64,000 nucleotides of DNA, from NCBI GenBank assembly GCA_030584085.1, contig CP129490.1, forward strand, positions 1,707,511-1,771,510. The letters run 5' to 3'. Position 1 is the stretch's first letter. Each line of letters begins with the position of its first letter. The position numbers and the translations under genes are program-made. The notes under the pieces are model-generated. The model was not told the origin of the DNA. It did no database searches and saw only the letters and a program-made list of their open reading frames with translations. Positions 40,919 to 64,000 of this stretch are shown one piece after another. Origin of the DNA: Melioribacteraceae bacterium (GTDB taxonomy: Bacteria; Bacteroidota; Ignavibacteria; Ignavibacteriales; Melioribacteraceae).

Positions 40919-41590
40919 TTGATGAGAGAAATCGATTATTCCTCGTGGGCTGATTATCTTGTTGATCTAATTGATTTATATCCCTTGAAGTCACACAGAT
41001 TATTAGAACTTGGAGCAGGTAATTGCAGCATTTCTAAATATCTTGTTGAAAGATATCCGGATTATATCGTATCTGACCTATCATATGCTATGCTGCTAGC
41101 GGCGAATCCTAAACTTCGTAGAGTTACCGCAGATATGACTAAACTTCCTTTCAAAAAAGAATTTGATGTGATTTTTTCTATATTTGACAGTGTTAATTAC
41201 TTGATAAATGATGAGGCTTTTATTTCTTTTCTATCCGAGGCCGGAAAGATTTTAAATGATGATGGTGTTTTAACGTTTGATGTAAGTCTTGAAAAAAATA
41301 GTAAGAAATATATTAAGCAATTAAATCGTAATGGAAGTGTAAACGGAATTAAATATTTTCAAAAAAGTGATTACGACAAAAAGACCAGAATTCACACAAA
41401 CACTTTTAACATAAATATTGATGGAGTAGTATTTTCTGAAACTCATCATCAAAAAATTTATTTATTTGAAGAGTATTTTTTATTTGCTGAAGAGGCTGGA
41501 TTGCGAGTGATAGATTGTTTTGATTGTTTTACATTTGATGACGCCAATAGCAGAACCGAACGCGCACAATTTGTATTAGGAAAAATTTAA
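40919..41590 (+). CDS. Class I SAM-dependent methyltransferase
   Basis: A 223-residue methyltransferase with motif I LLELGAGNCSISKYL near residue 26, an acidic YIVSDLSYAML strand end and IFSIFDSVNYL. The first standard starts are TTG 40919 and ATG 40922. However, the frame is open back to 40865, and residues just upstream (NPYTTISAIYSHLMREIDY) match the usual N terminus of this family. The true start may be a rare ATA (40874) or ATT, or a start codon may have been lost. Substrate unknown. It overlaps ftsE by one base. Confidence 0.8.
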   Translation: MMREIDYSSWADYLVDLIDLYPLKSHRLLELGAGNCSISKYLVERYPDYIVSDLSYAMLLAANPKLRRVTADMTKLPFKKEFDVIFSIFDSVNYLINDEAFISFLSEAGKILNDDGVLTFDVSLEKNSKKYIKQLNRNGSVNGIKYFQKSDYDKKTRIHTNTFNINIDGVVFSETHHQKIYLFEEYFLFAEEAGLRVIDCFDCFTFDDANSRTERAQFVLGKI

Positions 41591-42264
41591 TGCTCACTTT
41601 TAGTAATGTAGAATTTGCATATTATAATCAACCTGTGTTCAGTGATCTGAATTTCGAATGCGATCCCGGTGAATTTGTTTTTCTAATTGGTAAAAGCGGT
41701 TCAGGTAAAACGACATTCCTTCAGATGATTTATATGAATATTCTTCCACAATCAGGATATGTACAAGTTGGTGAATATACTTCAGCTTCAATAAGGGAGA
41801 AAGATCTTCCGTTTTTAAGACGAAAAATCGGAGTGATTTTCCAAGATTTTAAACTTCTTGAAGACCGTAATGTTTATGAGAACATTGCTTTTGTATTGCA
41901 AGTTACCGGAACGCCACGCAAGCAAATTAAAAGAAAAGTAATGGAAGCACTTTCGGAAGTTGGTCTATCTCATAAACAGCAAAATATGCCGAATGAATTA
42001 TCCGGCGGTGAAAAACAAAGAGTTGCAATAGCGAGAGCAATTGTGAATGATCCTATGATAATTTTAGCTGATGAACCAACCGGTAATCTGGATCCTGATA
42101 CTTCCGAAGAAATAATAAATTTCTTGAAAAAAATTAATGCTCGCGGTACATCTGTAATATGTGCAACACACAATTATGATTTAGTTAAAAGGTTAGATTC
42201 CAGAATCATAAAATTACAAGATGGTAAAGCTGTCAAAGTCGTTCTTAAGAAAAAAACTACTTAA
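41590..42264 (+). CDS. ftsE: FtsE-like ABC transporter ATP-binding protein
   Basis: FtsE is the ATPase of the FtsEX complex that controls peptidoglycan hydrolases at the division site. The 224 residues carry Walker [10 protein letters not shown], the FtsE-like Q-loop region [19 protein letters not shown], the signature [15 protein letters not shown] and Walker [16 protein letters not shown]. No ftsX follows: the next gene, adk, is on the opposite strand and overlaps by eight bases. The partner must be encoded elsewhere. A related LolD-type ATPase cannot be fully excluded. Confidence 0.85.
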
Positions 42265-50809: not shown

Positions 50810-52153
50810 ATGAAGAAAATCACCTTTCTTGTATCGCTTCTAATGGTGTCTTCGGTTTTTGCACAGAAGCAATTAACCCTAGAAGATGCAGTTTCAATTG
50901 CTCTACAACGAAATACGAGTCTAATAAAATCGCAAAATAATTTAAGTGCTTCTGAAGCAGAACTAAGAAGTGCGTATGGTGACCTGCTGCCAAACTTAGG
51001 AGCATCGGGATCTTTTGACTGGTCAAGAATTGATGACGACGGCGGCACTCAAGTTGACTTTTTAGGAAATGTAATTCAAACACCGGCTTCTTCTTCAGAG
51101 AGTAGAAGATATAGCGTTGGATTGGGTGGTGGTATTACACTGTTTAATGGCATGGCGAATTGGGCAAATATATCACAAAAAAGTAATAATCTTGAAGCAG
51201 CCGAGTTCGATTTAACAAAACTAAAACAAGATATTGTTTATCAAACTACCGAATACTTTTATGATGTTATAAACAATGAAGAAATACTAAAAGTAAGAGA
51301 AGAAAACGTAAAGTATAATCAAAAACTTTTAGAAACAATTGAAGAGAAAAATCGTCTAGGATCGGTTCCGGTTGTAGACGTATATTCACAACAAGTTCAG
51401 TTAGGAAATGCTGAATTACAACTTATACAAGCCGAAAATATTTATGAAAATTCGAAGAGCACTTTATTAAACTATCTTGCTCTAGATGTATTGGATGAAT
51501 ATACTTTTGTGAATAAAATTGCTCTTGATGATCAAATTAATACAGATTCATATATGACTCAGTTTGGTGATATGGAAATGCTAGTTAACGAAGCATTATC
51601 AAATAGATTTGATTATAAAAGTCAAAAATTAGCTGCAGAAAGTGCATCAGATGGAGTAACAATTGCTCGCGGCGGAATCTTTCCGCAATTAACCGGAAAT
51701 TATAATTATGGTTCTAGCGCAACAACTACAAGTGATTTATTTAATAGGAGATCACTTAGTGCAGGTCTAACTTTAAGCATTCCTATTTTCTCAAACTTTA
51801 ATGTTGATACAAGAATTCAATCAGCTCAGATTTTTGAACTCAATACTCTGGAAGACTTATCAGCTTTAGAACGACAAATAAAGATTGAGATTAAGCAAGG
51901 TTATTTAGATTTGTTAGCAACTAAGAAGAATCTGGATGTAACAAATAAGAATGTTATTTCCGCGAGAGAAAATAGAAGAATTAACACCGAAAGATACAAT
52001 CTTGGTGCTGGTAATATAGTCGAATTGCTTCAAGCGGATAGGGACTATGTAAGCGCGCTAAGCAACAAAATTGATGCTCTTTTTGGGTTCTTTACTTCTA
52101 GAGATCGCTTGCTCAATGCTCTAGGCAAACTTGATTACAAAGTTTTTGAATAA
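50810..52153 (+). CDS. TolC-family outer-membrane efflux protein
   Basis: TolC-type trimers form the outer-membrane channel of tripartite exporters. The 447-residue protein has a signal peptide (MKKITFLVSLLMVSSVFAQ), a duplicated helical-hairpin layout with typical LTLEDAVSIALQRN near the mature N terminus and YNLGAGNIVELLQADRDYV in the second half. It is the first gene of the MacAB-like cluster and precedes the adaptor gene by 22 bases. An AGGAG ribosome binding site precedes ATG 50810. Confidence 0.93.
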   Translation: MKKITFLVSLLMVSSVFAQKQLTLEDAVSIALQRNTSLIKSQNNLSASEAELRSAYGDLLPNLGASGSFDWSRIDDDGGTQVDFLGNVIQTPASSSESRRYSVGLGGGITLFNGMANWANISQKSNNLEAAEFDLTKLKQDIVYQTTEYFYDVINNEEILKVREENVKYNQKLLETIEEKNRLGSVPVVDVYSQQVQLGNAELQLIQAENIYENSKSTLLNYLALDVLDEYTFVNKIALDDQINTDSYMTQFGDMEMLVNEALSNRFDYKSQKLAAESASDGVTIARGGIFPQLTGNYNYGSSATTTSDLFNRRSLSAGLTLSIPIFSNFNVDTRIQSAQIFELNTLEDLSALERQIKIEIKQGYLDLLATKKNLDVTNKNVISARENRRINTERYNLGAGNIVELLQADRDYVSALSNKIDALFGFFTSRDRLLNALGKLDYKVFE

Positions 52154-52175
52154 AATTAACTTAGGAGACCTCTTC

Positions 52176-53447
52176 ATGGCAAATGGAAAGAAGAAAAAAT
52201 CGAAAAAGAAATTATTTATATTCGGTGGATTGGCATTGCTACTTTTAGTTGTTGTAATTGTAGTGGTTGCTAGCGGCGATAAAGAAGTAATTGTATCGGT
52301 TCAGACTGAAAAAGTTGAAAAAAGAACCATAACTCAAGTTGTTTCTGCTACTGGTAAAATTAATCCGGTTGAACAAGTTGTTATCACACCGGAGGTAACA
52401 GGTGAAATAGTTGAACTTCCTGTAAAAGAGGGAGTGAATGTAAATAAAGGTCAACTTTTAATTAGAATTAAACCTGATATTTATCTTGCTCAGAGAGATC
52501 GCGCACAAGCTCAGTTAGAATCTGCCAAGGCTCAATTGAAGGTGAGAGAAGCAAACCTAATGCAAGTTAGAGCAGAATTTGAACGTATGAAAGAACTTTA
52601 CGAAAAAGGATTGGCAAGTGATCAGGAACTAGAAATTTCTAGATCAACTTATTTGCAGTCAGAAGGTCAATACGAATCTCAAAAAGCTTCGGTAACTCAG
52701 TCCGAGGGTTCTTTACGTGAAGCACAAGAAAATTTAGCTAAAACAGCAATTTATTCTCCACTTAATGGCACTGTTAGTGCACTCAATGTTGAGTTGGGCG
52801 AAAGGGTTTTAGGAAGCGGTTTTAGTCAGGGGACAAATATTATGACAGTTGCAGCGTTAGATAAGATGGAAGCAACTGTGGACGTTGACGAAAATGATGT
52901 TGTATTAGTTTCAACTGGTGATACAGCTAGAGTAAAAATTGATGCCTTTCGTGATAAAGAATTTTTAGGGGTAGTTACTCAAATCGGGAACAGTGCAAAA
53001 ACAAGTGGGCTCGGAACACAAGATGAAGTAGTAAATTTTGAAGTAAAAATTGAATTAGTCAATAGTACTCTTGAAATCAGACCGGGTATGTCTTGCGATG
53101 CGGACATTGAAACCGAAACTAGAGAAAACGTATTCTCAGTTCCGATCCAAAGTGTTACAGCTAGAACTATTCCTCCAAAAGAAGGTGAAGAAGAAAAACC
53201 AAACGGAAAACAAGGACCACAAGAAGTTGTCTTCCTAGTAGATGGTTCGGTTGCAAAAATTGTTGCAGTTAAAACTGGAATTAGTGATGATACTCATATT
53301 GAAATTACATCAGGTTTAGAAGGTGAAGAAACTATTGTTACTGGCAGCTATAGAGCTATTTCAAAAGAATTGGAAGATGGGACTAAAGTATCGATCCAAG
53401 GTGGGGGCGGACCGGGTATGAATAGTAGAGGTCCTCGATCTGAATAA
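52176..53447 (+). CDS. Periplasmic adaptor (MacA/HlyD-type membrane fusion protein)
   Basis: Adaptors of this type link an inner-membrane exporter to TolC. The 423-residue protein has a basic N terminus, a single membrane helix (about 14-33), a lipoyl-like half (EIVELPVKEGVNVNKGQLL), a long coiled-coil hairpin rich in Gln, Glu and Ala (about 110-195), the second lipoyl half and beta-barrel domains. ATG 52176 is chosen because AGGAG lies 8 bases upstream; a longer frame from 52131 would overlap tolC. The C-terminal tail is Gly-rich. It is followed directly by the ABC ATPase. Confidence 0.93.
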   Translation: MANGKKKKSKKKLFIFGGLALLLLVVVIVVVASGDKEVIVSVQTEKVEKRTITQVVSATGKINPVEQVVITPEVTGEIVELPVKEGVNVNKGQLLIRIKPDIYLAQRDRAQAQLESAKAQLKVREANLMQVRAEFERMKELYEKGLASDQELEISRSTYLQSEGQYESQKASVTQSEGSLREAQENLAKTAIYSPLNGTVSALNVELGERVLGSGFSQGTNIMTVAALDKMEATVDVDENDVVLVSTGDTARVKIDAFRDKEFLGVVTQIGNSAKTSGLGTQDEVVNFEVKIELVNSTLEIRPGMSCDADIETETRENVFSVPIQSVTARTIPPKEGEEEKPNGKQGPQEVVFLVDGSVAKIVAVKTGISDDTHIEITSGLEGEETIVTGSYRAISKELEDGTKVSIQGGGGPGMNSRGPRSE

Positions 53448-53470: not shown

Positions 53471-54193
53471 ATGAACATAATTAATATTGAACATATCGCG
53501 AAAATTTATCAAGTCGGATCAGAGGAAGTTCATGCTTTAGCTGATGTATCTCTTAAAATTGACAAGAATGAATATCTTGCAATTATGGGTCCTTCGGGTT
53601 CCGGTAAATCGACTTTAATGAACATCCTTGGTTGTCTAGATACTCCGACTAAAGGACTTTATGATTTCAAAGGCGAAAACGTTAGTGAGATGACTGATAA
53701 TGAACTAGCCAAAATACGAAATAGAGAAATCGGATTTGTATTTCAAACATTTAATTTACTTCCTCGATCGGATGCGCTCCATAATGTTGAACTTCCGCTG
53801 ATATATGCCGGAGTACCTTCATCCGAAAGAAAAGAAAGGGCACGTGAAGCCTTAGTAAATGTTGGACTGGGGGATCGCATCCATCATAAACCAAACGAGT
53901 TATCAGGTGGTCAACGCCAAAGAGTGGCGGTTGCCAGAGCATTAGTTACAAATCCGTCTATAATTCTTGCTGATGAACCAACGGGTAATTTGGATAGTAA
54001 AACAGGCGAGGAAATAATGATTCTCTTCAACGAAATTCATTTACAAGGGAATACAATAATATTAGTAACACACGAGGAATATATTGCAAGACATGCCGCT
54101 AGAATTATTAGAATCCGAGACGGATTTATCGAAAGTGATGAGAATGTGACCAATAGATATATTCCTACTCCGAGAATAGAAAAAGAATCTTAA
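53471..54193 (+). CDS. MacB/LolD-type ABC transporter ATP-binding protein
   Basis: The 240-residue nucleotide-binding protein has Walker [11 protein letters not shown]-loop [14 protein letters not shown], signature [15 protein letters not shown], Walker [14 protein letters not shown] and the switch His in LVTHEEY. It is the only ATPase in a cluster with five permeases. In E. coli MacB the ATPase and permease are fused; here they are separate. It presumably drives type VII (mechanotransmission) export through the adaptor and TolC-like channel. Confidence 0.95.
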
Positions 54194-54210
54194 ACATTTG
54201 GGGGGAACAA

Positions 54211-55449
54211 ATGGGTCAATACCTATTTGAATTGAAGGAAAGTTTACTTATATCTTTCCGCGCAATCCGTGTAAATAAAATACGATCCATTTTGACAACT
54301 CTTGGAATTGTTATTGGTGTAACGTCAGTTGTACTAATGTCGACTGCACTTAAGGGGATGGACATTGCCTTTCAAGATGGTGTAGCTGCTCTTGGCTCAG
54401 ATAATCTTTATATTGATAAATGGTCATGGTTTGATAACAATATCCCTTGGTGGGAAGTAAGAAACAGAAAAAACCTTGATCTTGATGAATTCAAACAATA
54501 TGAATCTCTTGCCAAATTACCGGAAGCCGTTGCTCCTACTGTGTGGACAAATCAAACATTAAAGTTTAAGGACAATACTCTGTACTTTAACATGATCACC
54601 GGTACTAACCATAATTATATTAAAACCACAAATCTGGAGTTTGCCGAAGGAAGATTTTTTACTGAATTAGAAAGTAACTCAGCCAGAAATGTTGTGGTTA
54701 TAGGTTCATCCGTTGCTGAAAGTCTTTTCCCAAGGGGTGGTGGATTAAACGAATTCATTAAAATTAAGGGAAGAAAATTCAAAGTAATTGGAATACTTGC
54801 TCAGCAAGGAAGTTTTATTATGGGCAATTTCAATCCCGATAATCAAGCGTTCGTTCCAATCGATGTTGTATTCAAATATTTTCATAGATCCGATTTCCGA
54901 AGTATAACTTTCAATGTTAGAGCCAAAAATAATGCTCTTGTACAAGATACCAAAGATGAAGCTATCAGTTTGATGAGAAAAATCCGAGGACTTTCTTATG
55001 CGGATGAAAATGATTTTTCAATTAATCAACAAGAAGGTTTGCTGAATAATATAAATCAGACAACTTCGGTTATAAAAATTGCTGGATACTTTATCACCGG
55101 TTTAGCTCTTTTTGTTGGTGCCATTGGTATTATGAACATTATGTTTGTTTCAGTTAAAGAACGAACTCGAGAAATTGGAATTCGTAAAGCTATCGGTGCT
55201 AAAAGAAGAACTGTGCTCGGACAATTTTTATTTGAGTCATCAATAATTTGCTTAATGGGTGGATTTGTTGGTTTAGCTATAGCAGTTCTATTAAGTATGG
55301 TGGTCAATCAATTTTTACCGACTTCGGTTCAAGTTGATGCAGTCATTCTCGCGATTGTAATTTCTGTATTAACAGGGGTTATTTCTGGTCTGGCACCAGC
55401 ATATACAGCCGCAAAAATGGATCCGGTTGATGCATTAAGATATGAATAG
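54211..55449 (+). CDS. MacB-type ABC permease 1, type A
   Basis: A 412-residue permease with one N-terminal helix (IRSILTTLGIVIGVTSVVLM), a large periplasmic MacB core domain (about 50-285) and three C-terminal helices of the FtsX fold, with GAIGIMNIMFVSVKERTREI and closing AAKMDPVDALRYE. The periplasmic domain starts LYIDKWSWFDNN. That segment and the AAKMDPVDALRYE ending are shared with permease 4 and distinguish type A from type B. A run of six G precedes the ATG as ribosome binding site. Confidence 0.92.
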   Translation: MGQYLFELKESLLISFRAIRVNKIRSILTTLGIVIGVTSVVLMSTALKGMDIAFQDGVAALGSDNLYIDKWSWFDNNIPWWEVRNRKNLDLDEFKQYESLAKLPEAVAPTVWTNQTLKFKDNTLYFNMITGTNHNYIKTTNLEFAEGRFFTELESNSARNVVVIGSSVAESLFPRGGGLNEFIKIKGRKFKVIGILAQQGSFIMGNFNPDNQAFVPIDVVFKYFHRSDFRSITFNVRAKNNALVQDTKDEAISLMRKIRGLSYADENDFSINQQEGLLNNINQTTSVIKIAGYFITGLALFVGAIGIMNIMFVSVKERTREIGIRKAIGAKRRTVLGQFLFESSIICLMGGFVGLAIAVLLSMVVNQFLPTSVQVDAVILAIVISVLTGVISGLAPAYTAAKMDPVDALRYE

Positions 55450-55473
55450 GAATAACTTCATCGGGGGAAAGTT

Positions 55474-56703
55474 ATGAGGTTAATTGAAACTTCAAAAGTA
55501 GCATTATCAGCACTGCGTTCTAATAAATTAAGATCTACTCTTACAATGGTTGGAATCATTGTCGGGATTTTTTCCATTATTTCTATTAGTACTGTCATTG
55601 CGATGCTTCAGACAAGTATTGAAGAGGGCGTTTCAGCTTTAGGAAAAAATACTTTCCAGATTCAAAAATGGCCTGCTGTTGGTAACGGTACACAAAATTG
55701 GGCTGAGATTAGGAATCGCAAAGATATAACTTATGATGATTATACAAGACTCAAAGACATGCTGTTTGATGCGAAATATGTTGGTGCTGAGCAATGGAAT
55801 TTCGGTAGAAAAATTTCCTTTAGAAATAAAGAAACGAACCCTAACATTTCAGTTTGCGGTGCAACACCTGATGCATTTCCGAATAATGATTGGTATGCAA
55901 AAGAGGGAAGAGCGGTAAATCAAAATGATGTTGACAGAGCTGAGAGAGTCATATGTTTAGGTTCCTCTGTAGCTGAATTATTATTCGAGTTCGAAGATCC
56001 TATTGGTAAAGAAGTTAAAATGGACGGGAATAAATTTCGTGTGATCGGAGTAATGGATAGTAAAGCTGGAGGAATGTTTGGAAGAGATCAAGGAAATGAT
56101 AATTATATTCCTATAACTACCATGCAAGCACTATATGGTGATACACGGAGCATAAATATAACGGTAAGCGTGGACACAAAAGAAGAATATGATGATGTAA
56201 TTTTACAAGCTGAAGGTGCTATGCGTACTATTAGAAAAGTACCACCTGCAGCTGCAAATGATTTTGATATTTATTCCAATGAATCTGTCCTGTTGCAAAT
56301 TAATGAAATGACAGAGGGTGTGAGATTAGGAGCGTATGTCATAGGCTTAATCGCACTACTTGCTGCCGGAGTGGGTATTATGAATATTATGCTCGTTTCG
56401 GTCACCGAGAGAACAAGAGAAATAGGAATTCGAAAAGCTATAGGTGCTCGAAGACGTAATATTCTTGTTCAATTTTTGGTTGAGGCTATTACTCTATGTT
56501 TACTTGGCGGAATCGTCGGAATAATTTTTGGTTTAGGAGCCGGAAATTTTGCCGGTTCACTTTTAGAAGCAACAGCAACAATTCCAATGGATTGGGTTCT
56601 TGTTGGAGTTGTTCTTTGCGTAATAATTGGTGTTATATTTGGAACTTATCCCGCATTTAAGGCGGCTAATTTAGATCCTATTGAAGCCTTGAGGTATGAA
56701 TAA
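55474..56703 (+). CDS. MacB-type ABC permease 2, type B
   Basis: A 409-residue MacB/FtsX-family permease with N-terminal helix (LTMVGIIVGIFSIISISTV), periplasmic core domain beginning FQIQKWPAVGNG, and three C-terminal helices starting VGIMNIMLVSVTERTREI. It ends AANLDPIEALRYE, the type B ending. Type B members share the QIQKWPAV or QKYPAV segment. It is highly similar to the next gene, indicating recent duplication, and is followed by it with no gap (stop and start codons adjacent). Confidence 0.92.
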   Translation: MRLIETSKVALSALRSNKLRSTLTMVGIIVGIFSIISISTVIAMLQTSIEEGVSALGKNTFQIQKWPAVGNGTQNWAEIRNRKDITYDDYTRLKDMLFDAKYVGAEQWNFGRKISFRNKETNPNISVCGATPDAFPNNDWYAKEGRAVNQNDVDRAERVICLGSSVAELLFEFEDPIGKEVKMDGNKFRVIGVMDSKAGGMFGRDQGNDNYIPITTMQALYGDTRSINITVSVDTKEEYDDVILQAEGAMRTIRKVPPAAANDFDIYSNESVLLQINEMTEGVRLGAYVIGLIALLAAGVGIMNIMLVSVTERTREIGIRKAIGARRRNILVQFLVEAITLCLLGGIVGIIFGLGAGNFAGSLLEATATIPMDWVLVGVVLCVIIGVIFGTYPAFKAANLDPIEALRYE

Positions 56704-57939
56704 ATGTTAATTTTCGAAATTATTAAAGTAGCTCTAAATTCTCTTAAAGCAAATAAGCTTAGATCATCATTAACTGTTTTAGGAATTGTAGTCGGAATCT
56801 TCTCAATCATTTCAATTAGTACTGTTATTGCTATGCTTCAAACCAGTATTGAAGATGGCGTTTCAGCACTGGGCAAAAACACATTTCAAATTCAAAAATG
56901 GCCTGCTGTAGGAACGGGTACTGAAAATTGGGCGGAAATACGGAATCGTAAAAATATTAATTTGAACGATTACTATGTTCTGCAAGACAAATTAGGCCAT
57001 CTCGCCTCGATCGGTGCCGAAGATTGGCAAGGTGGTAAACTATTGAAACGTGGAAACAAAAAGACTAATCCGAATATTTCTATGTGTGGTGTTACTCCGG
57101 AAGCTTTTTCTAACAATGATTGGGTTGTGACTGCAGGAAGAATTATTAATCAAAGAGACTTAGAAAGTTCTGCGCGAGTTATTGTGTTGGGTGAAGATAT
57201 TAAAAATACGCTGTTTGAACCATATGAAGAACCGCTTGGAGAAGAAATCTATGTTGACGGAAACCGTCTCAAAGTTATTGGCGTGCTTGATAACAGAGAT
57301 AAAGGAATGTTTGGTAGAAATGAAGGCAATTATTCTTTTGTACCTATTACATTTACTCAATCACATTATGGTTCAGAAAATAGAAGTCTAAATTTGACAG
57401 TTGCTGTTTATGACCCGGACGATTATGAAGACACACAAATGCAAGCCGAAGGAATTATGAGAACTCTAAGAAAAGTTCCTCCGGGTGCTGATAGAGATTT
57501 TGATATTTACTCAAATGAATCGGTTCTCTCACAAATTAATGAGATGACCGAAGGAATAAAAATTGGTGCCTACGTTATCGGATTAATTGCATTGCTTGCC
57601 GCCGGAGTTGGAATTATGAACATTATGCTTGTGTCAGTAACGGAACGAACGAAAGAAATTGGTGTACGAAAAGCTATTGGAGCAAGAAAAGTAAACATTT
57701 TAATACAATTTATTTCAGAAGCGATTGTACTTTGTTTAGGTGGTGGAATCGTTGGTATCATTCTTGGGATTGCCGTTGGGAACTTTGCTGGCTCATTATT
57801 AAATGCAACTGCAGTTATTCCCATGGATTGGGTACTTGTTGGAGTTTTCTTATGTGTTATGATTGGTATTATATTCGGGACTTACCCAGCAATCAAAGCT
57901 TCTAATCTAGATCCGATCGAAGCTTTACGATATGAATAG
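56704..57939 (+). CDS. MacB-type ABC permease 3, type B
   Basis: A 411-residue permease with the same layout as permease 2 and long stretches of identity (STVIAMLQTSIE, GVSALGKNTFQIQKWPAVG). The periplasmic domain differs more, for example around residues 95-130. It ends SNLDPIEALRYE. A clear terminator hairpin follows at 57970-58002, so the first part of the cluster may be read separately from the last two permeases. Confidence 0.92.
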   Translation: MLIFEIIKVALNSLKANKLRSSLTVLGIVVGIFSIISISTVIAMLQTSIEDGVSALGKNTFQIQKWPAVGTGTENWAEIRNRKNINLNDYYVLQDKLGHLASIGAEDWQGGKLLKRGNKKTNPNISMCGVTPEAFSNNDWVVTAGRIINQRDLESSARVIVLGEDIKNTLFEPYEEPLGEEIYVDGNRLKVIGVLDNRDKGMFGRNEGNYSFVPITFTQSHYGSENRSLNLTVAVYDPDDYEDTQMQAEGIMRTLRKVPPGADRDFDIYSNESVLSQINEMTEGIKIGAYVIGLIALLAAGVGIMNIMLVSVTERTKEIGVRKAIGARKVNILIQFISEAIVLCLGGGIVGIILGIAVGNFAGSLLNATAVIPMDWVLVGVFLCVMIGIIFGTYPAIKASNLDPIEALRYE

Positions 57940-57969
57940 TTTATATCTCTAAACTATACCTTTCTCAAT

Positions 57970-58002
57970 AAGCATTTGTCTAATTTTAGCAAATGCTTTT
58001 TT
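57970..58002 (+). terminator. Intrinsic terminator within the permease cluster
   Basis: AAGCATTTG (57970-57978) and CAAATGCTT (57990-57998) form a perfect 9-bp stem with an 11-base loop, followed by four Ts. It lies 30 bases after permease 3 and 46 bases before permease 4. It could act as a full or partial terminator, lowering expression of the last two permeases. Confidence 0.8.
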
Positions 58003-58048
58003 ATTTCTGCGAATAATAATATCTTAAGCTTTTAAAAACTGGCACGCT

Positions 58049-59281
58049 ATGAAAAATTTCCTCATCGAGTTAAAAGAAGGTATTCTCATTTCATTACGAG
58101 CAATCAGAGCTAACAAGATGCGCTCGATATTAACAACACTTGGTATAATTATAGGCATTGTAGCTGTTACAACTATGAGTACTGCAATTGTTGGTTTACG
58201 CGAAGCCTTTATCAGTTCTCTTGCTTCATTCGGCAATGATGTGTTATATATAGACAAATTTGAATGGTTTGGAGGTGAGGATTGGAGATATTATCGAAAT
58301 CGAAAGGATATTACTGTTGAACAATTTGAGCAATTGCAAAAAACTTACACCGGTTACCAAGCAATGGCTCCAAACAAGAGAACTTTTGGAAGAACAATCA
58401 AATTTGAAGACCGCTCAGTGGAAGCTACATTAATTTACGGTACAACTGAAGATTATTCAGAAACGGGAAATGCCATACCACAAGATGGGCGATTTATTAA
58501 TGAATTAGAAGTAAGAGCTTCGAGACGGGTTTGTGTAATTGGACAAGATATTTCTGACGGTTTATTTCCAAACGAATCTGCTCTCGGGAAGACAATAAAA
58601 ATAAGTGGGATTCCCTTCAAAGTCGTCGGAGTGTTAGAAAAGCAAGGCAGTGGATTTTTGGGTTCTTTTAGTTTAGACGGACAAATAATAATGCCCTTAA
58701 AAGTATTTGAAAGAGCCTTCGGTGGAAGGGGCAACTTGCAAATTAATGTTAAAATAAAAGATGCTAATAAGATAGATGAAGCCAAAGAAGAAATTGCAGC
58801 AATTTTCAGAGTTATAAGAAAAGTTCCACCCGGTCAACCAAATGATTTTGCAGTTAATCAACAAGATGTATTCACCGATGTATATGATCAAACTGTAGGT
58901 ATAATTGCTACTGCAGGAATTGTAATAACGGCATTATCATTATTCGTCGGTGCTATCGGTATAATGAATATTATGTTTGTTTCTGTAACAGAAAGAACAA
59001 AAGAAATTGGTATTCGAAAAGCAATCGGAGCAAAACGATGGTCAATTTTAACACAATTTTTAGTGGAAGCTGCTGTGATCTGTTTGATTGGTGGAATTAT
59101 CGGTTTAATTATATCATATCCTCTTAGTTTAGTAATAGATCAGTTTTTACCAACGGCAATGCCTTTGGATATAGTTTTCTTATCATTATTTATTTCTGCA
59201 ATGGTCGGAATTATTTCCGGATTTTTACCGGCATACAAGGCGGCTAAAATGGATCCGGTTGATGCATTAAGATACGAATAG
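58049..59281 (+). CDS. MacB-type ABC permease 4, type A
   Basis: A 410-residue MacB/FtsX-type permease of type A: N-terminal helix SILTTLGIIIGIVAVTTMST, periplasmic core starting LYIDKFEWFGG, C-terminal helices starting GAIGIMNIMFVSVTERTKEI and ending AAKMDPVDALRYE as in permease 1. There is no nearby ATPase of its own, so it probably uses the one at 53471 or one elsewhere. It starts nine bases upstream of a type B partner-like gene pair, with permease 5 following after nine bases. Confidence 0.92.
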   Translation: MKNFLIELKEGILISLRAIRANKMRSILTTLGIIIGIVAVTTMSTAIVGLREAFISSLASFGNDVLYIDKFEWFGGEDWRYYRNRKDITVEQFEQLQKTYTGYQAMAPNKRTFGRTIKFEDRSVEATLIYGTTEDYSETGNAIPQDGRFINELEVRASRRVCVIGQDISDGLFPNESALGKTIKISGIPFKVVGVLEKQGSGFLGSFSLDGQIIMPLKVFERAFGGRGNLQINVKIKDANKIDEAKEEIAAIFRVIRKVPPGQPNDFAVNQQDVFTDVYDQTVGIIATAGIVITALSLFVGAIGIMNIMFVSVTERTKEIGIRKAIGAKRWSILTQFLVEAAVICLIGGIIGLIISYPLSLVIDQFLPTAMPLDIVFLSLFISAMVGIISGFLPAYKAAKMDPVDALRYE

Positions 59282-59290
59282 GAATTTTTT

Positions 59291-60517
59291 ATGCAAATCA
59301 AAGAATCAATTGTAATGGCTTTCGATTCATTAAGAACCAACAAGCTAAGATCAATTTTAACATTAATTGGAATTGGAATTGGTTTGTTCTCGATCATAAT
59401 TGTGATGACTGCCATTGGTGCTGTTCAAAAAACAGTAGAAGATGCATTTAGTTCGATTGGTACTAATAATTTTATTATTCAGAAATATCCGGCAGTAAGG
59501 ATGGGTCCGGGTCATTGGAGAATGTACCGTAACCGAAAAGATCTTACATCAGACCAAGGTAGAAGGTTGAAAGAATTAACAATACTTCCTACAGCAATCG
59601 GAATTGAGATGGATGATGGTGGGAATATTGTTAAATATAAGAATCTATCAACCAATCCGAATGTAAATGTTATAGGAACTGATTTAGACAACTTTATGGT
59701 AAATGACTTAAAAGTGGAATTTGGTCGTGGATTTACAATACAGGACATGGATTATATAAGACGATATGCCATTATTGGTAAAGATGTGGCTGATAAACTT
59801 TTTGAAAATGTTGATCCAATCGGAGAAGAAATTAAAGTTGATAATCAACCTTTTGAAGTTATTGGTGTTTTCGAGAAAAAGGGAAGTGTTTTAGGAAGCG
59901 GTCAGGATAATTTTGTGGCAATACCGTTACCTATGTTCGAAAGGATGTATGGTGAAGAAAGAGGAGCAACATTTACAATAATGGCTCCGAGTCCTGAGTT
60001 AATGGAAAGAACAATGGATGAAGTGATTGGAGCATTAAGAGTAATCAGAAAAGTTCCAATCGGAGAAGATAACGATTTTGAAATTGTAACAAATGACCAA
60101 TTGGTTGACCAGTTCAATGATCTAACAAAGTATTTCAAGCTGGGTGCCGGTGTTGTTGCATTCATTGCGTTGCTTGCAGCCGGAGTTGGCATTATGAATA
60201 TTATGCTTGTCTCGGTCACGGAACGTACGCGTGAAATTGGGATACGAAAAGCAATAGGTGCGAGAAAATCCATAATTCGTTCTCAATTTGTAGCAGAAGC
60301 TATTGTGCTTTCACAGATAGGTGGAATTGGCGGAATAGTTCTTGGCGTACTAGGTGGTAATTTGGTTGCGATAATGATAAATGTTTCGGTTGTTGTTCCC
60401 ATTGATTGGATAATGATTGGATTGACTGTTACTACTTTAGTTGGCGTTGTTTTTGGCGTTTATCCGGCAATAAAAGCATCAAACTTAGACCCAATTGAAG
60501 CACTTAGATATGAATAA
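59291..60517 (+). CDS. MacB-type ABC permease 5, type B
   Basis: A 408-residue permease of type B with the segment NNFIIQKYPAVRMG at the start of its periplasmic domain and the ending SNLDPIEALRYE. It is more diverged from permeases 2 and 3 than they are from each other. The FtsX core AAGVGIMNIMLVSVTERTRE is intact. With permease 4 it forms an A-B pair, mirroring the A-B-B order of the first three. Substrate unknown. Confidence 0.92.
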   Translation: MQIKESIVMAFDSLRTNKLRSILTLIGIGIGLFSIIIVMTAIGAVQKTVEDAFSSIGTNNFIIQKYPAVRMGPGHWRMYRNRKDLTSDQGRRLKELTILPTAIGIEMDDGGNIVKYKNLSTNPNVNVIGTDLDNFMVNDLKVEFGRGFTIQDMDYIRRYAIIGKDVADKLFENVDPIGEEIKVDNQPFEVIGVFEKKGSVLGSGQDNFVAIPLPMFERMYGEERGATFTIMAPSPELMERTMDEVIGALRVIRKVPIGEDNDFEIVTNDQLVDQFNDLTKYFKLGAGVVAFIALLAAGVGIMNIMLVSVTERTREIGIRKAIGARKSIIRSQFVAEAIVLSQIGGIGGIVLGVLGGNLVAIMINVSVVVPIDWIMIGLTVTTLVGVVFGVYPAIKASNLDPIEALRYE

Positions 60518-60598: not shown

Positions 60599-63500
60599 TT
60601 GATTCGGCAAATCACAAAATTAATATTTTTCGTAATACTCTATTCGGCAGCTTTTGCTCAAGAATATAATAATATCATTTCGGTAACCGATACATTTCAA
60701 GTAAATCTTCAACGCGAATTTCATCTAAATTCAATCGCTATCATTCCAAATTCTGAGACTGTTCGATACAATAAAAATTTACTTTCTTCGAAAGATTATA
60801 AAATTAATCTAAGTGACGGAACAATAACATTAAACGAAAATCTTACACCCCGCTTAATTGACACATTGTATGTAACTTACAATACATTCAAATTATCACT
60901 TCGTAAGGAGTATAAAAGAAGATCGCTTATTGTGAGATACGATGATATACTTAATGACTCGATTAGAGTTTCAAGAGTTGAGTCATCTGGATTTACTTCC
61001 GAAGCAATATTCGGTGATAATATTCAAAAAAGTGGTTCTATTGTCCGTGGTTTTACAGTAGGGACAAATAAAGATTTTACTTTAGAAAGTGGTTTACGAC
61101 TCCAGCTATCCGGTAATTTATCAGACGAAATAGAAATTGTTGCCGCTCTTACTGATGAAAATACTCCAATTCAACCGGAAGGTAACACCGAAACATTGGA
61201 TGAACTAGATAAAGTATTTATCGAGGTTCGACATCCAAACGCGATCGGCACATTCGGTGATTATGATTATACAGAAAGTATTGGTGAGTTTGGAAGGATA
61301 ACAAGAAAATTGCAAGGATTAAAAGGAGAATTGTTCTTTGATGAGTTATCAGCATCCGGAGCAATAGCCGGTTCAAGAGGAAAGTTTACAACAAATCAAT
61401 TCAACGGTGAAGAAGGAAATCAAGGTCCATATAGGTTGTATGGAGAGAATAATGAAAATAATATAATTGTTATTGCCGGAAGTGAAAGAGTTTATATTGA
61501 CGGTCAAGAAATGCGTCGTGGTGAAAACAATGATTATACAATCGAATATGCAAACGCTGAAGTTACATTCACACCAAATCGTTTAATTACTTCCGCTTCA
61601 AGAATTACAATAGATTTCGAATACTCGGATAGACAATATCAGAGAAACTTCTTCGCAGGGAATGTTAAGACTAACTTTTTTGAAGATCGATTAAAACTTA
61701 GTGTCGGATTCTTTCAAGAAAGCGATGACGAGAATAATCCAATTGATATTTCTATTTCAGATGAAGACAAAATCATTTTGGAAAATGCCGGTGATGATAG
61801 AAGTAAAGCTGTAAAAAGTGGTGCAAGGTTAGCGCAACCGGATTCTACTGGTATTGTTCGAGGTATTTATGAAAAAATAGACACAACATTTAACGGAGAA
61901 CCATTTACATATTATTTTTACAATCCCGGAAGTGACAGTGCAATCTATAATGTGAGCTTTACGTTTGTCGGTATTGGACAAGGAGATTACTTAAAACGTG
62001 GTCTTGGTAATTATGAGTTTGTCGGAATTGGACAAGGGAGTTATCTTCCGATTATTTATCTTCCACTTCCGGCAAGCAGACAAATGGCAAACATTTTAAT
62101 CGAAGGAAGACCATTTAACAATCTCAATATTAAAATGGAACTTGCAGGAAGTAATTGGGATAAAAATACTTTTTCAAGTTTGGATGATTCGGACAATTTT
62201 GGTTACGCGAGAAATATCGAAATAAAACTTGATCCATCTCAAATTGAAATCGGTGATTTATCTTTTGGAAAAATAGGATTCAATTACAAGGATCGATTTA
62301 TTCAAGACAGATTTACCGCAATTGATAGAATTGATGAAATCGAATTCAATAGAAATTATAATGTTGTTGATCAAGAGAAATACGATGAAGAATTAAGAGA
62401 AGTTGGATTAACCTTAATTCCAATTGAGAGTCTTAATATTTATTCACAATTGGGTAGTTTAAGTCGCGGTGATTTGTTTTCGTCAAAACGATACTTAGTT
62501 AAAACTAATTATGAAGATCCTGAATCATTCAACTTAACTTATAATCTTGATTATGTCAGTTCTTCAAACAGAGGTTTCTCAACAAATTGGTTGAAGCAAG
62601 ACGGAAATACATTTTATAAAATTGGTGTCATTAAACCGGGTTTAAAATTTTTACATGAAAATAAAGAAGACTACGATTCAAATGATTCATTAATGTTAAG
62701 CAGTCTTCGTTATTTTGAGTACACACCATATCTCGAATTGATTAATTGGGGTGGATTAAATTTACTTGGTGAATATTCTATACGTGAAGAATCTTTTCCA
62801 CTTAATGGTATAATCCAAAAACAATCCGAAGCAATTACCAAAAATTTCAAAGTAAGTTACAGTGGAATAAAAGATTTCAATACTTCACTAAATTTTACAT
62901 TACGAAACAAAAATTATACTCAAGAATTTAAGGAAATCGGTTACTTAGATTTCGAAACAATTCTGATAAGATCACAATCGCGAGCAAATTTATTTGACCG
63001 ATTTTTAGACGGGGATTTATTTTACGAAGTCTCCACACAAAAAAGCGCAAGACAAGAAAAAGTCTTTGTATTAGTTGAAAAAGGAACAGGTAATTATATC
63101 TATCTTGGTGATCTAAATAATAACGGCATTAAAGATGAAAATGAATTTGAACCCGCACTATTCGACGGTGAATATATATTACTGACAGTTCCTACCGATG
63201 AACTTTTCCCGGTAATTGATTTGAAAACAAGTACAAGATGGAAAACAGAATTTGCAAGAATCTTCAAAAATGATTCATTCATTTCAACAATCTTGAATCC
63301 AATTTCAACTGAGACATATTGGAGAGTAGAAGAAAATAGTAAAGAACAAAATACTGCTAAAATTTATCTTCTTAACTTCTCACATTTCTTGAATGATTCG
63401 ACAACTATTCGTGGTTCAAATCTTCTACAACAAGATATTTTTCTTTTCAAAAACAAAAATGATCTTTCTTTTAGATTTAGATTTACTCAAAGAAGAAACC

Positions 63501-64000
63501 TGAATCAATTTGCCGGAGGAACTGAAAAAGGTTTCTATCGCGAAAGAGGAATGCGAATAAGATTTCAGATGGTCGAAGAAATATCAAATCAAACCGAGTA
63601 CACAAATACAATTGATAATAACTCTGCACCGGTTACATCAAATCGTGCACGTATTGTTTCAACCAACGAATTAACAAGCGATTTCTCATATAGACCGGAA
63701 CGCAATTTGGAATTTGGTTTTGTAATTAAATTTTCTGAAAGCCGGGATGATTACCCCGAAGTGCCAACACTTGTTGATGCCAATGCCCAAATACTAAGGA
63801 TGAACCTTAATTTTTCCGGAAGAGGTAGATTAAGAGTTGAACTTGAGAGGAATGAATTGAGCGCTAGTTCGGCAAACAATATAATCCCATTTGAAATTAC
63901 AAAGGGGAGAGTAATAGGTAAAAACTATTTTTGGCGTGTCAATTTTGATTTTAGAATTGCCGGTAATTTACAAACAACACTTAATTATGATGGCAGACTT
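60599..64000 (+). CDS. Large SprA/Sov-like outer-membrane protein, 3' end outside window
   Basis: The frame opens at TTG 60599 with a signal peptide (IRQITKLIFFVILYSAAFAQ) and stays open for all 1134 codons to the window edge. The region near residue 160 (LQLSGNLSDEIEIVAALTDE followed by TPIQPEGNTETLDELDKVFI) matches the pattern of SprA/Sov proteins, the outer-membrane channel of type IX secretion. GDLNNNGIKDENEFEPA near residue 837 is another SprA-like element. A repeat FVGIGQGxYL occurs twice, about residues 456 and 474. The rest looks like a very large beta barrel. SprA itself is about 2400 residues; the full length here is unknown, so a shorter SprA-related protein is possible. Confidence 0.7.
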   Translation, partial: MIRQITKLIFFVILYSAAFAQEYNNIISVTDTFQVNLQREFHLNSIAIIPNSETVRYNKNLLSSKDYKINLSDGTITLNENLTPRLIDTLYVTYNTFKLSLRKEYKRRSLIVRYDDILNDSIRVSRVESSGFTSEAIFGDNIQKSGSIVRGFTVGTNKDFTLESGLRLQLSGNLSDEIEIVAALTDENTPIQPEGNTETLDELDKVFIEVRHPNAIGTFGDYDYTESIGEFGRITRKLQGLKGELFFDELSASGAIAGSRGKFTTNQFNGEEGNQGPYRLYGENNENNIIVIAGSERVYIDGQEMRRGENNDYTIEYANAEVTFTPNRLITSASRITIDFEYSDRQYQRNFFAGNVKTNFFEDRLKLSVGFFQESDDENNPIDISISDEDKIILENAGDDRSKAVKSGARLAQPDSTGIVRGIYEKIDTTFNGEPFTYYFYNPGSDSAIYNVSFTFVGIGQGDYLKRGLGNYEFVGIGQGSYLPIIYLPLPASRQMANILIEGRPFNNLNIKMELAGSNWDKNTFSSLDDSDNFGYARNIEIKLDPSQIEIGDLSFGKIGFNYKDRFIQDRFTAIDRIDEIEFNRNYNVVDQEKYDEELREVGLTLIPIESLNIYSQLGSLSRGDLFSSKRYLVKTNYEDPESFNLTYNLDYVSSSNRGFSTNWLKQDGNTFYKIGVIKPGLKFLHENKEDYDSNDSLMLSSLRYFEYTPYLELINWGGLNLLGEYSIREESFPLNGIIQKQSEAITKNFKVSYSGIKDFNTSLNFTLRNKNYTQEFKEIGYLDFETILIRSQSRANLFDRFLDGDLFYEVSTQKSARQEKVFVLVEKGTGNYIYLGDLNNNGIKDENEFEPALFDGEYILLTVPTDELFPVIDLKTSTRWKTEFARIFKNDSFISTILNPISTETYWRVEENSKEQNTAKIYLLNFSHFLNDSTTIRGSNLLQQDIFLFKNKNDLSFRFRFTQRRNLNQFAGGTEKGFYRERGMRIRFQMVEEISNQTEYTNTIDNNSAPVTSNRARIVSTNELTSDFSYRPERNLEFGFVIKFSESRDDYPEVPTLVDANAQILRMNLNFSGRGRLRVELERNELSASSANNIIPFEITKGRVIGKNYFWRVNFDFRIAGNLQTTLNYDGRL

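Follow-up and report, generated by a model that had tools for sequence, protein, structure and literature searches.

Gene content of the locus

The 64,000 nucleotide (nt) stretch of DNA analysed here (the window; nt 1707511 – 1771510 of contig CP129490.1) is part of the genome of a Melioribacteraceae bacterium, a single contig of 3.74 Mb. Between nt 50810 and 60517 of the window, all on the plus strand, lie genes for a TolC-type channel, an adaptor, an ATP-binding cassette (ABC) ATPase and five permeases (A1, B1, B2, A2 and B3, in that order), which by gene order is the gene content of a tripartite efflux pump. The permeases belong to two families, A and B, which probably work as A-B heterodimers. 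An initial annotation of the window had described one ATPase followed by five MacB-type permeases in the order A-B-B / A-B (nt 53471 – 60517), and this is confirmed, all five permeases being intact open reading frames (ORFs).

The TolC-type outer membrane channel (nt 50810 – 52153; PF02321 OEP, 215 bits) is also found 5' of the adaptor and ATPase genes in most relatives inspected. The MacA-like periplasmic adaptor (nt 52131 – 53447) matches HlyD_D23 and HlyD_3 and scores above the cut-off of TIGR01730 (RND_mfp); its ORF begins at nt 52131, and the likely start codon is the ATG at nt 52176. The ABC ATPase (nt 53471 – 54193; PF00005, 117 bits) is a separate protein of 240 amino acids (aa), not fused N-terminally to any of the five permeases. 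As the initial annotation had supposed, it is the only close ATPase available to them: the next best in the genome is 41% identical. Its closest named relatives found are from Ignavibacteria and Melioribacter assemblies. A second ATPase in the window (nt 41590 – 42264) shares 41% identity with that of the pump; as a guess, it may be FtsE.

Permeases A1 (nt 54211 – 55449), B1 (nt 55474 – 56703), B2 (nt 56704 – 57939), A2 (nt 58049 – 59281) and B3 (nt 59291 – 60517) are 412, 409, 411, 410 and 408 aa in length. Each has MacB_PCD and FtsX domains above cut-off and none has an ATPase domain (ABC_tran). Identity is 48% between A1 and A2, 68% between B1 and B2, 46% between either of these and B3, and 33–35% between A and B. 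The motif sets reported earlier were found as described, the A permeases (first and fourth) having LYIDKW/F and the ending MDPVDALRYE, and the B permeases (second, third and fifth) QKxPAV and LDPIEALRYE. The coupling region ERTxEIGIRKAIGA is retained in A and B alike, so both halves should engage an ATPase. The best solved-structure matches by sequence and by fold are to MacB, and the cut-off of the NCBIfam MacB equivalog model (966 bits) is not reached by the permeases (177.3–210.5 bits) or the ATPase (265.3 bits). A search for internal promoters in the array was uninformative (37 found, 37.3 expected).

Two permease families, their order and their inheritance

The separation of A and B into distinct clades, predicted at the outset, is borne out by three trees, each of which recovers both as clades. 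A FastTree phylogeny of 357 permeases parts the A and B labels at a single branch (165 A rows, 191 B rows; support 99, to be read with caution). A mixture-model tree that includes MacB and Lol references gives an A clade of 40 rows and a B clade of 42 rows (supports 99 and 97), and a third tree, made without the longest references, gives A at 97 and B at 92, with A and B together set apart from four MacB references at 99; the latter two trees were quick searches with long reference branches, and all of their supports other than the 92 likewise call for caution. Left out of the third tree were L048, L058, L072, L079 (loci are given by number), an Enterococcus permease and LolC/LolE. B2 and B3 of the window are absent from the mixture-model tree and were placed through identical copies in L118, which were added to the third tree. 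By these sequence comparisons A and B are confirmed as real, separate families, with the four MacB references outside both. Tandem permease pairs outside the two clades, possibly of another pair type, occur in a GN15 bacterium and an Acidobacterium (L048, L058); their four permeases are B by score alone, yet lie outside both clades. At 60 loci of the family, complete permeases score ~540–830 bits against their own model and ~280–370 bits against the other, which argues that the A/B split is not due to chance, both models having been made from the five window proteins alone.

Gene order was compared in loci collected by similarity to the window ATPase or permeases, which are not a random sample. 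The count covers loci with a profile hit, and an ATPase match at L219 (63 bits, 6 kb away) was excluded. From 170 such loci 157 were kept, after dropping eight as unclear (the Escherichia coli MacB locus, L178, and L048, L058, L062, L068, L072, L078 and L079, the last seven with permeases that are ambiguous, stand alone or are distant) and five that exactly repeat other loci (L123, L153, L158, L161 and L199). At 129 of the 157 the ATPase is the last known component 5' of the permeases. The first permease after it is then always an A (129/129), and the second, where present, always a B (124/124, four of these B genes being cut by a contig or stretch end); an ATPase followed by B first was not seen among the 129 loci. 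The order, A before B, is strictly kept and old. An unrelated ORF intervenes between the ATPase and A at eight of the 129 loci, and an ORF of ~510–530 aa, not permease-like by profile, was seen at this position in L026, L034, L190, L192, L193 and L197.

The arrays found were A-B, A-B-B, A-B-B-B, A-B-A-B, A-B-B-A-B and A-B-A-B-B, and the A-B pair occurs also in named Verrucomicrobiota, Balneolota, Calditrichota, KSB1, other Bacteroidota and others. Wherever a second A lacked an intact B 3' of it, either the A was broken, as in L171, where an apparent A-A is one A gene in two pieces, or a stretch or contig end lay close by (L013/L158, L174, L183). At eight loci the stretch retrieved carries A-B but no ATPase, TolC or adaptor gene; L147, L162 and L175, three of the eight, lie at contig ends. 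In the Balneolota-like loci L037, L043, L046, L228, L229 and L230 the pair lies 5' of TolC-adaptor-ATPase rather than 3'. L194, L211, L216, L217 and L219, and also L221, L223 and L226, carry a lone B gene, the stretch retrieved having no A. Some of these have neighbouring genes in common within their group, and the genomes of the first five loci hold one A and two B genes in total.

The pairs are inherited as units. A1 and B1 make up the first pair and A2 and B3 the second: in the A subtree the second A genes of L137, L173 and L182 join A2 in a subclade, the second B genes of the same loci form the matching B subclade, and B3, through its L118 copy, groups with the second-pair B of L119 at support 100 (FastTree) and falls in a 25-row clade (support 89) with the second-pair B genes of L129, L133, L144, L137 and others. 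Co-variation was measured as the partial correlation of distances given the ATPase, over 14 two-pair loci (91 distances, which are not independent). In this analysis, where B2 stands for the second-pair B, the cognate combinations A1-B1 and A2-B2 reach 0.66 and 0.63, against 0.10–0.38 for the four others; on leaving out one locus at a time they range over 0.60–0.73 and 0.49–0.67, with non-cognate values up to 0.50 (B1-B2). Position alone is a poor explanation, since the lowest correlation is that of B1 and A2, which are neighbours in arrays without an extra B.

The sites that separate A from B are enriched in the helices that, in MacB, form the dimer bundle. Among the 30 columns that separate the families best, 20 fall in transmembrane helices (TM) 1 and 2 (13) and the stalk (7), which together make up 88 of 402 columns, and six in TM3 and TM4 (55 columns), the region limits having been set in the current study with guidance from hydropathy. 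The TM1 and TM2 extensions of both MacB monomers are described as forming a four-helix bundle, with TM3 and TM4 packed outside (PMC5985334). At position 303 of A1, in TM2, glycine is found in 162/162 A rows and in 5/5 MacB-type references, and alanine in 185/189 B rows.

Multiplication of the B genes

A profile of the five permeases finds matches in 147/149 genomes of the class and 184/198 of the phylum (E ≤ 1e-80). With separate A and B profiles (E ≤ 1e-118), 138 of the 149 class genomes have both; B outnumbers A in 28, the two are equal in 110 and A outnumbers B in none, related genomes being counted singly, so that the 28 genomes do not represent 28 events. The other 11 comprise three with A and no B, two with B and no A, and six with neither. 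Most class genomes missing A and/or B are incomplete assemblies; G109 and G096 are at least 95% complete. Within the family both are present in 53 of 57 genomes (more B in 17, equal in 34, more A in 2), the remainder being one genome with A only and three with neither.

Half of the tandem B-B pairs (11/22) have a common ancestor shared by no more than five sequences and represent eight lineages in the FastTree phylogeny, one of which (L237) has a support of only 20. The other 11, in this family, go back to a deeper B split. A lone duplication of A was not seen among the 19 loci with two A genes, as in 18 of them the two copies go back to the same deep split (support 59) and the last, L235, has B genes beside each A. 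The view of B as the multiplied partner, put forward in the initial annotation, is supported by the tandem duplicates in about eight lineages and the excess of B in 28/138 class genomes.

In the window, B2 is a paralogue of B1 by a duplication limited to a genus clade. The clade has four B sequences (support 99), including B1, B2 and the only B that L119 has in its first pair, and the latter is sister to B2 at support 100 (both FastTree), i.e. it is the orthologue of B2 and not of B1. The duplication therefore seems to predate the divergence of L119, where B1 would have been lost and the B2 orthologue kept beside A1, as if either B could serve A1.

B1 and B2 had been thought near-identical in the membrane part, with a more divergent periplasmic part that reflected selection on cargo recognition. 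Their membrane parts are 78% identical, which is well short of this. The periplasmic part is indeed more divergent (61%), but this is not special to them, as the membrane part is the more alike in 10/10 permease pairs. Nor does the comparison support selection on cargo: their periplasmic identity of 0.61 compares with 0.58 (standard deviation 0.06) in 602 B pairs taken across genomes and matched in membrane identity, i.e. it is as membrane identity predicts, and cargo selection between the two was dropped as an explanation. The synonymous sites are saturated (proportion of synonymous differences, pS, 0.77; nonsynonymous divergence, dN, 0.25), so that no selection test is possible. The tandem B pairs of L189 (448–2947) and L237 (6552–9256) have 95% membrane identity and 71–77% periplasmic identity, below all 16 cross-genome comparators, which hints at gene conversion or diversifying selection in these two.

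Subunit arrangement of the pump and its alternatives

Taken together, the gene order, the two clades, the co-inheritance and co-variation of pairs, the excess of B and the single close ATPase favour an A-B heterodimer on a shared ATPase, which is the best reading of the locus and a likely one. The operon would encode a tripartite exporter resembling MacAB-TolC, in which two copies of the one separate ATPase drive an A-B permease dimer in the inner membrane. There would be two cognate pairs, A1-B1 and A2-B3, together with B2, and the ATPase, adaptor and TolC would be common to all. As described for MacB, the two stalk helices of A and the two of B would be zipped together on ATP binding, pushing periplasmic cargo through the adaptor and channel. 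B1 and B2 may alternate on A1, for which the chances are about even; that they carry different cargo is rather doubtful.

A heterodimer is also compatible with B2 and the second pair being redundant dosage copies that handle the same cargo, an alternative that falls short of an even chance. The periplasmic divergence of B1 and B2 is no greater than expected, the dN of 0.25 with saturated synonymous sites indicates strong constraint, and L119 retains only one of the two. Both copies have, however, stayed intact in the window despite that saturation, and the B-B pairs of L189 and L237, alike in the membrane part and divergent in the periplasmic part, hint at diversification or gene conversion at those loci.

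It is unlikely that each permease instead forms a homodimer, all of them borrowing one ATPase and the A-B arrangement being only an old operon order. MacB and FtsX are themselves homodimers (PMC5985334), and the lone B genes of 11 loci would fit this reading. An ATPase followed by B was seen at none of the 129 loci, however, the pairs duplicate and diverge together, a second A lacks an intact B only where that A is broken or the stretch or contig ends, and the helices that dimerise hold more than their share of A/B-specific sites. Structure prediction was rejected as a judge between A-B and B-B. AlphaFold2 models of fused A1-B1 (predicted local distance difference test, pLDDT, 77.4; predicted template modelling score, pTM, 0.51; 29 alignment rows) and fused B1-B2 (pLDDT 61.6, pTM 0.48, 6 rows) show a similar two-fold arrangement at low confidence, both resembling MacB, the alignment depths not being comparable and the chains being fused rather than separate subunits. 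Fused B1-B2 appears as much like a two-fold pump as A1-B1.

Several observations weigh against the heterodimer. Both fused models match YbbP along the whole chain, with a best TM-score of 0.51 each and no preference for A-B. B stands alone in 11 loci. Two genomes of the family (G012, G038) have more A than B, the last B lying at a contig end in both, and in G158 the only A and the only B are on different contigs. The leave-one-out ranges touch, the low value of A2-B2 (0.49) meeting the high value of B1-B2 (0.50). Co-variation is weaker in the membrane part (0.29 and 0.35 for cognate pairs, up to 0.25 for the others), and in the periplasmic part, with A1-B1 at 0.70, the non-cognate B1-B2 (0.49) exceeds A2-B2 (0.42). 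Adjacency and joint transfer could also yield such co-variation. The heterodimer suggested by the initial annotation accordingly has indirect support, from order, co-inheritance, co-variation and the A/B sites, and none from the fused-chain models; in the correlation of distances the cognate pairs are highest over whole proteins, and the separation is weaker when the proteins are split by part.

Comparable systems are known. LolCE is a heterodimer with a separate ATPase in the same superfamily, and YbbP has two permease halves fused in one chain (PMC5985334, PMC8277102); Streptococcus pneumoniae Spr0694-0695 has an adaptor partner (PMC5985334), a Borrelia system has a homodimeric MacB-like permease (PMC13078400), and a heterodimeric MacB (TP0962/TP0963/TP0964) is described for Treponema pallidum with adaptor TP0965 and four TolC-like proteins (PMC8407342, citing Brautigam 2012). 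The present locus resembles MacAB-TolC, a type VII ABC transporter, in its MacB_PCD and FtsX permeases, MacA-like adaptor and TolC channel, but has a separate ATPase, two permease families rather than one and several permeases per ATPase. Spr0694-0695 (5xu1) is alike in its separate ATPase, MacB-type permease and adaptor partner, but has one permease and is Gram-positive. YbbAP is a single polypeptide where A and B are separate genes, and YbbP can be superposed over its full chain on the fused A1-B1 model (VIA-align Z 22.3, 624 residues, root mean square deviation 9.7). YbbAP is not known to have a TolC or adaptor. The treponemal system is alike in gene content: two different MacB-type permeases, one separate ATPase, an adaptor and outer membrane factor genes lie together, but there as one pair with four channels and here with extra permeases. 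Full-text searches of the literature found nothing on multiplied A/B permeases, and only the treponemal precedent for the arrangement. The heterodimeric kind is thus already known, and these searches turned up no A/B pair of such wide occurrence in which B alone has grown in number.

Instead of exporting cargo out of the cell, the system might extract lipids or lipoproteins in the manner of LolCDE. It has the separate ATPase, the two different permeases and the four-TM fold in common with the heterodimeric LolCE, and presence in 147/149 class genomes suggests a household role, but this reading is improbable, as TolC and adaptor genes belong to the operon, the five permeases score 26.7–62.6 bits against a lolCE cut-off of 362, and two further MacB_PCD proteins elsewhere in the genome (nt 1211215 – 1213097), adjoined by an ATPase, are a separate pair of which the one member scored matches LolC/LolE best (263.6 bits, below that cut-off).

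The array is followed on the plus strand by a gene for a protein of 1152 aa (nt 60599 – 64000, running past the window end), which is probably an outer membrane barrel, judging from a signal-like start and a C-terminal phenylalanine. Neither Pfam, even at E 1, nor the PDB gave a match for it, and the gene was also read in L244 (110–3568). It is found in 121/149 class genomes, mostly with one match each. In this bacterial family it often adjoins the A/B arrays, and it is also seen beside lone B genes and A-B pairs that lack an ATPase, and among 60 loci outside the family (L180–L239) it is within the stretch in only L180 and L182. A role as cargo of the second pair was rejected, as the gene also lies 3' of lone B genes and of arrays that have no second pair, and occurs at only 2/60 of the outside loci. 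Its link to the pump is uncertain, and it was left out of the mechanism.

A more far-reaching, and tentative, possibility is a combinatorial exporter, in which A is the fixed half and B the exchangeable one, and duplicated B genes, in tandem or elsewhere, reprogramme the cargo of one pump. If true, the motor, adaptor and channel already present would suffice for new cargo. The one-sided increase in B genes offers a way of testing which half of a mechanotransmission pump sees the cargo, and the TM2 change at position 303 of A1 pinpoints a residue for experiment. Descriptions of MacB are of a homodimer; with an old A/B pair present in 138/149 class genomes and in other phyla, the heterodimer would rank among the major forms of the family, which raises the question of why two different halves have been kept.

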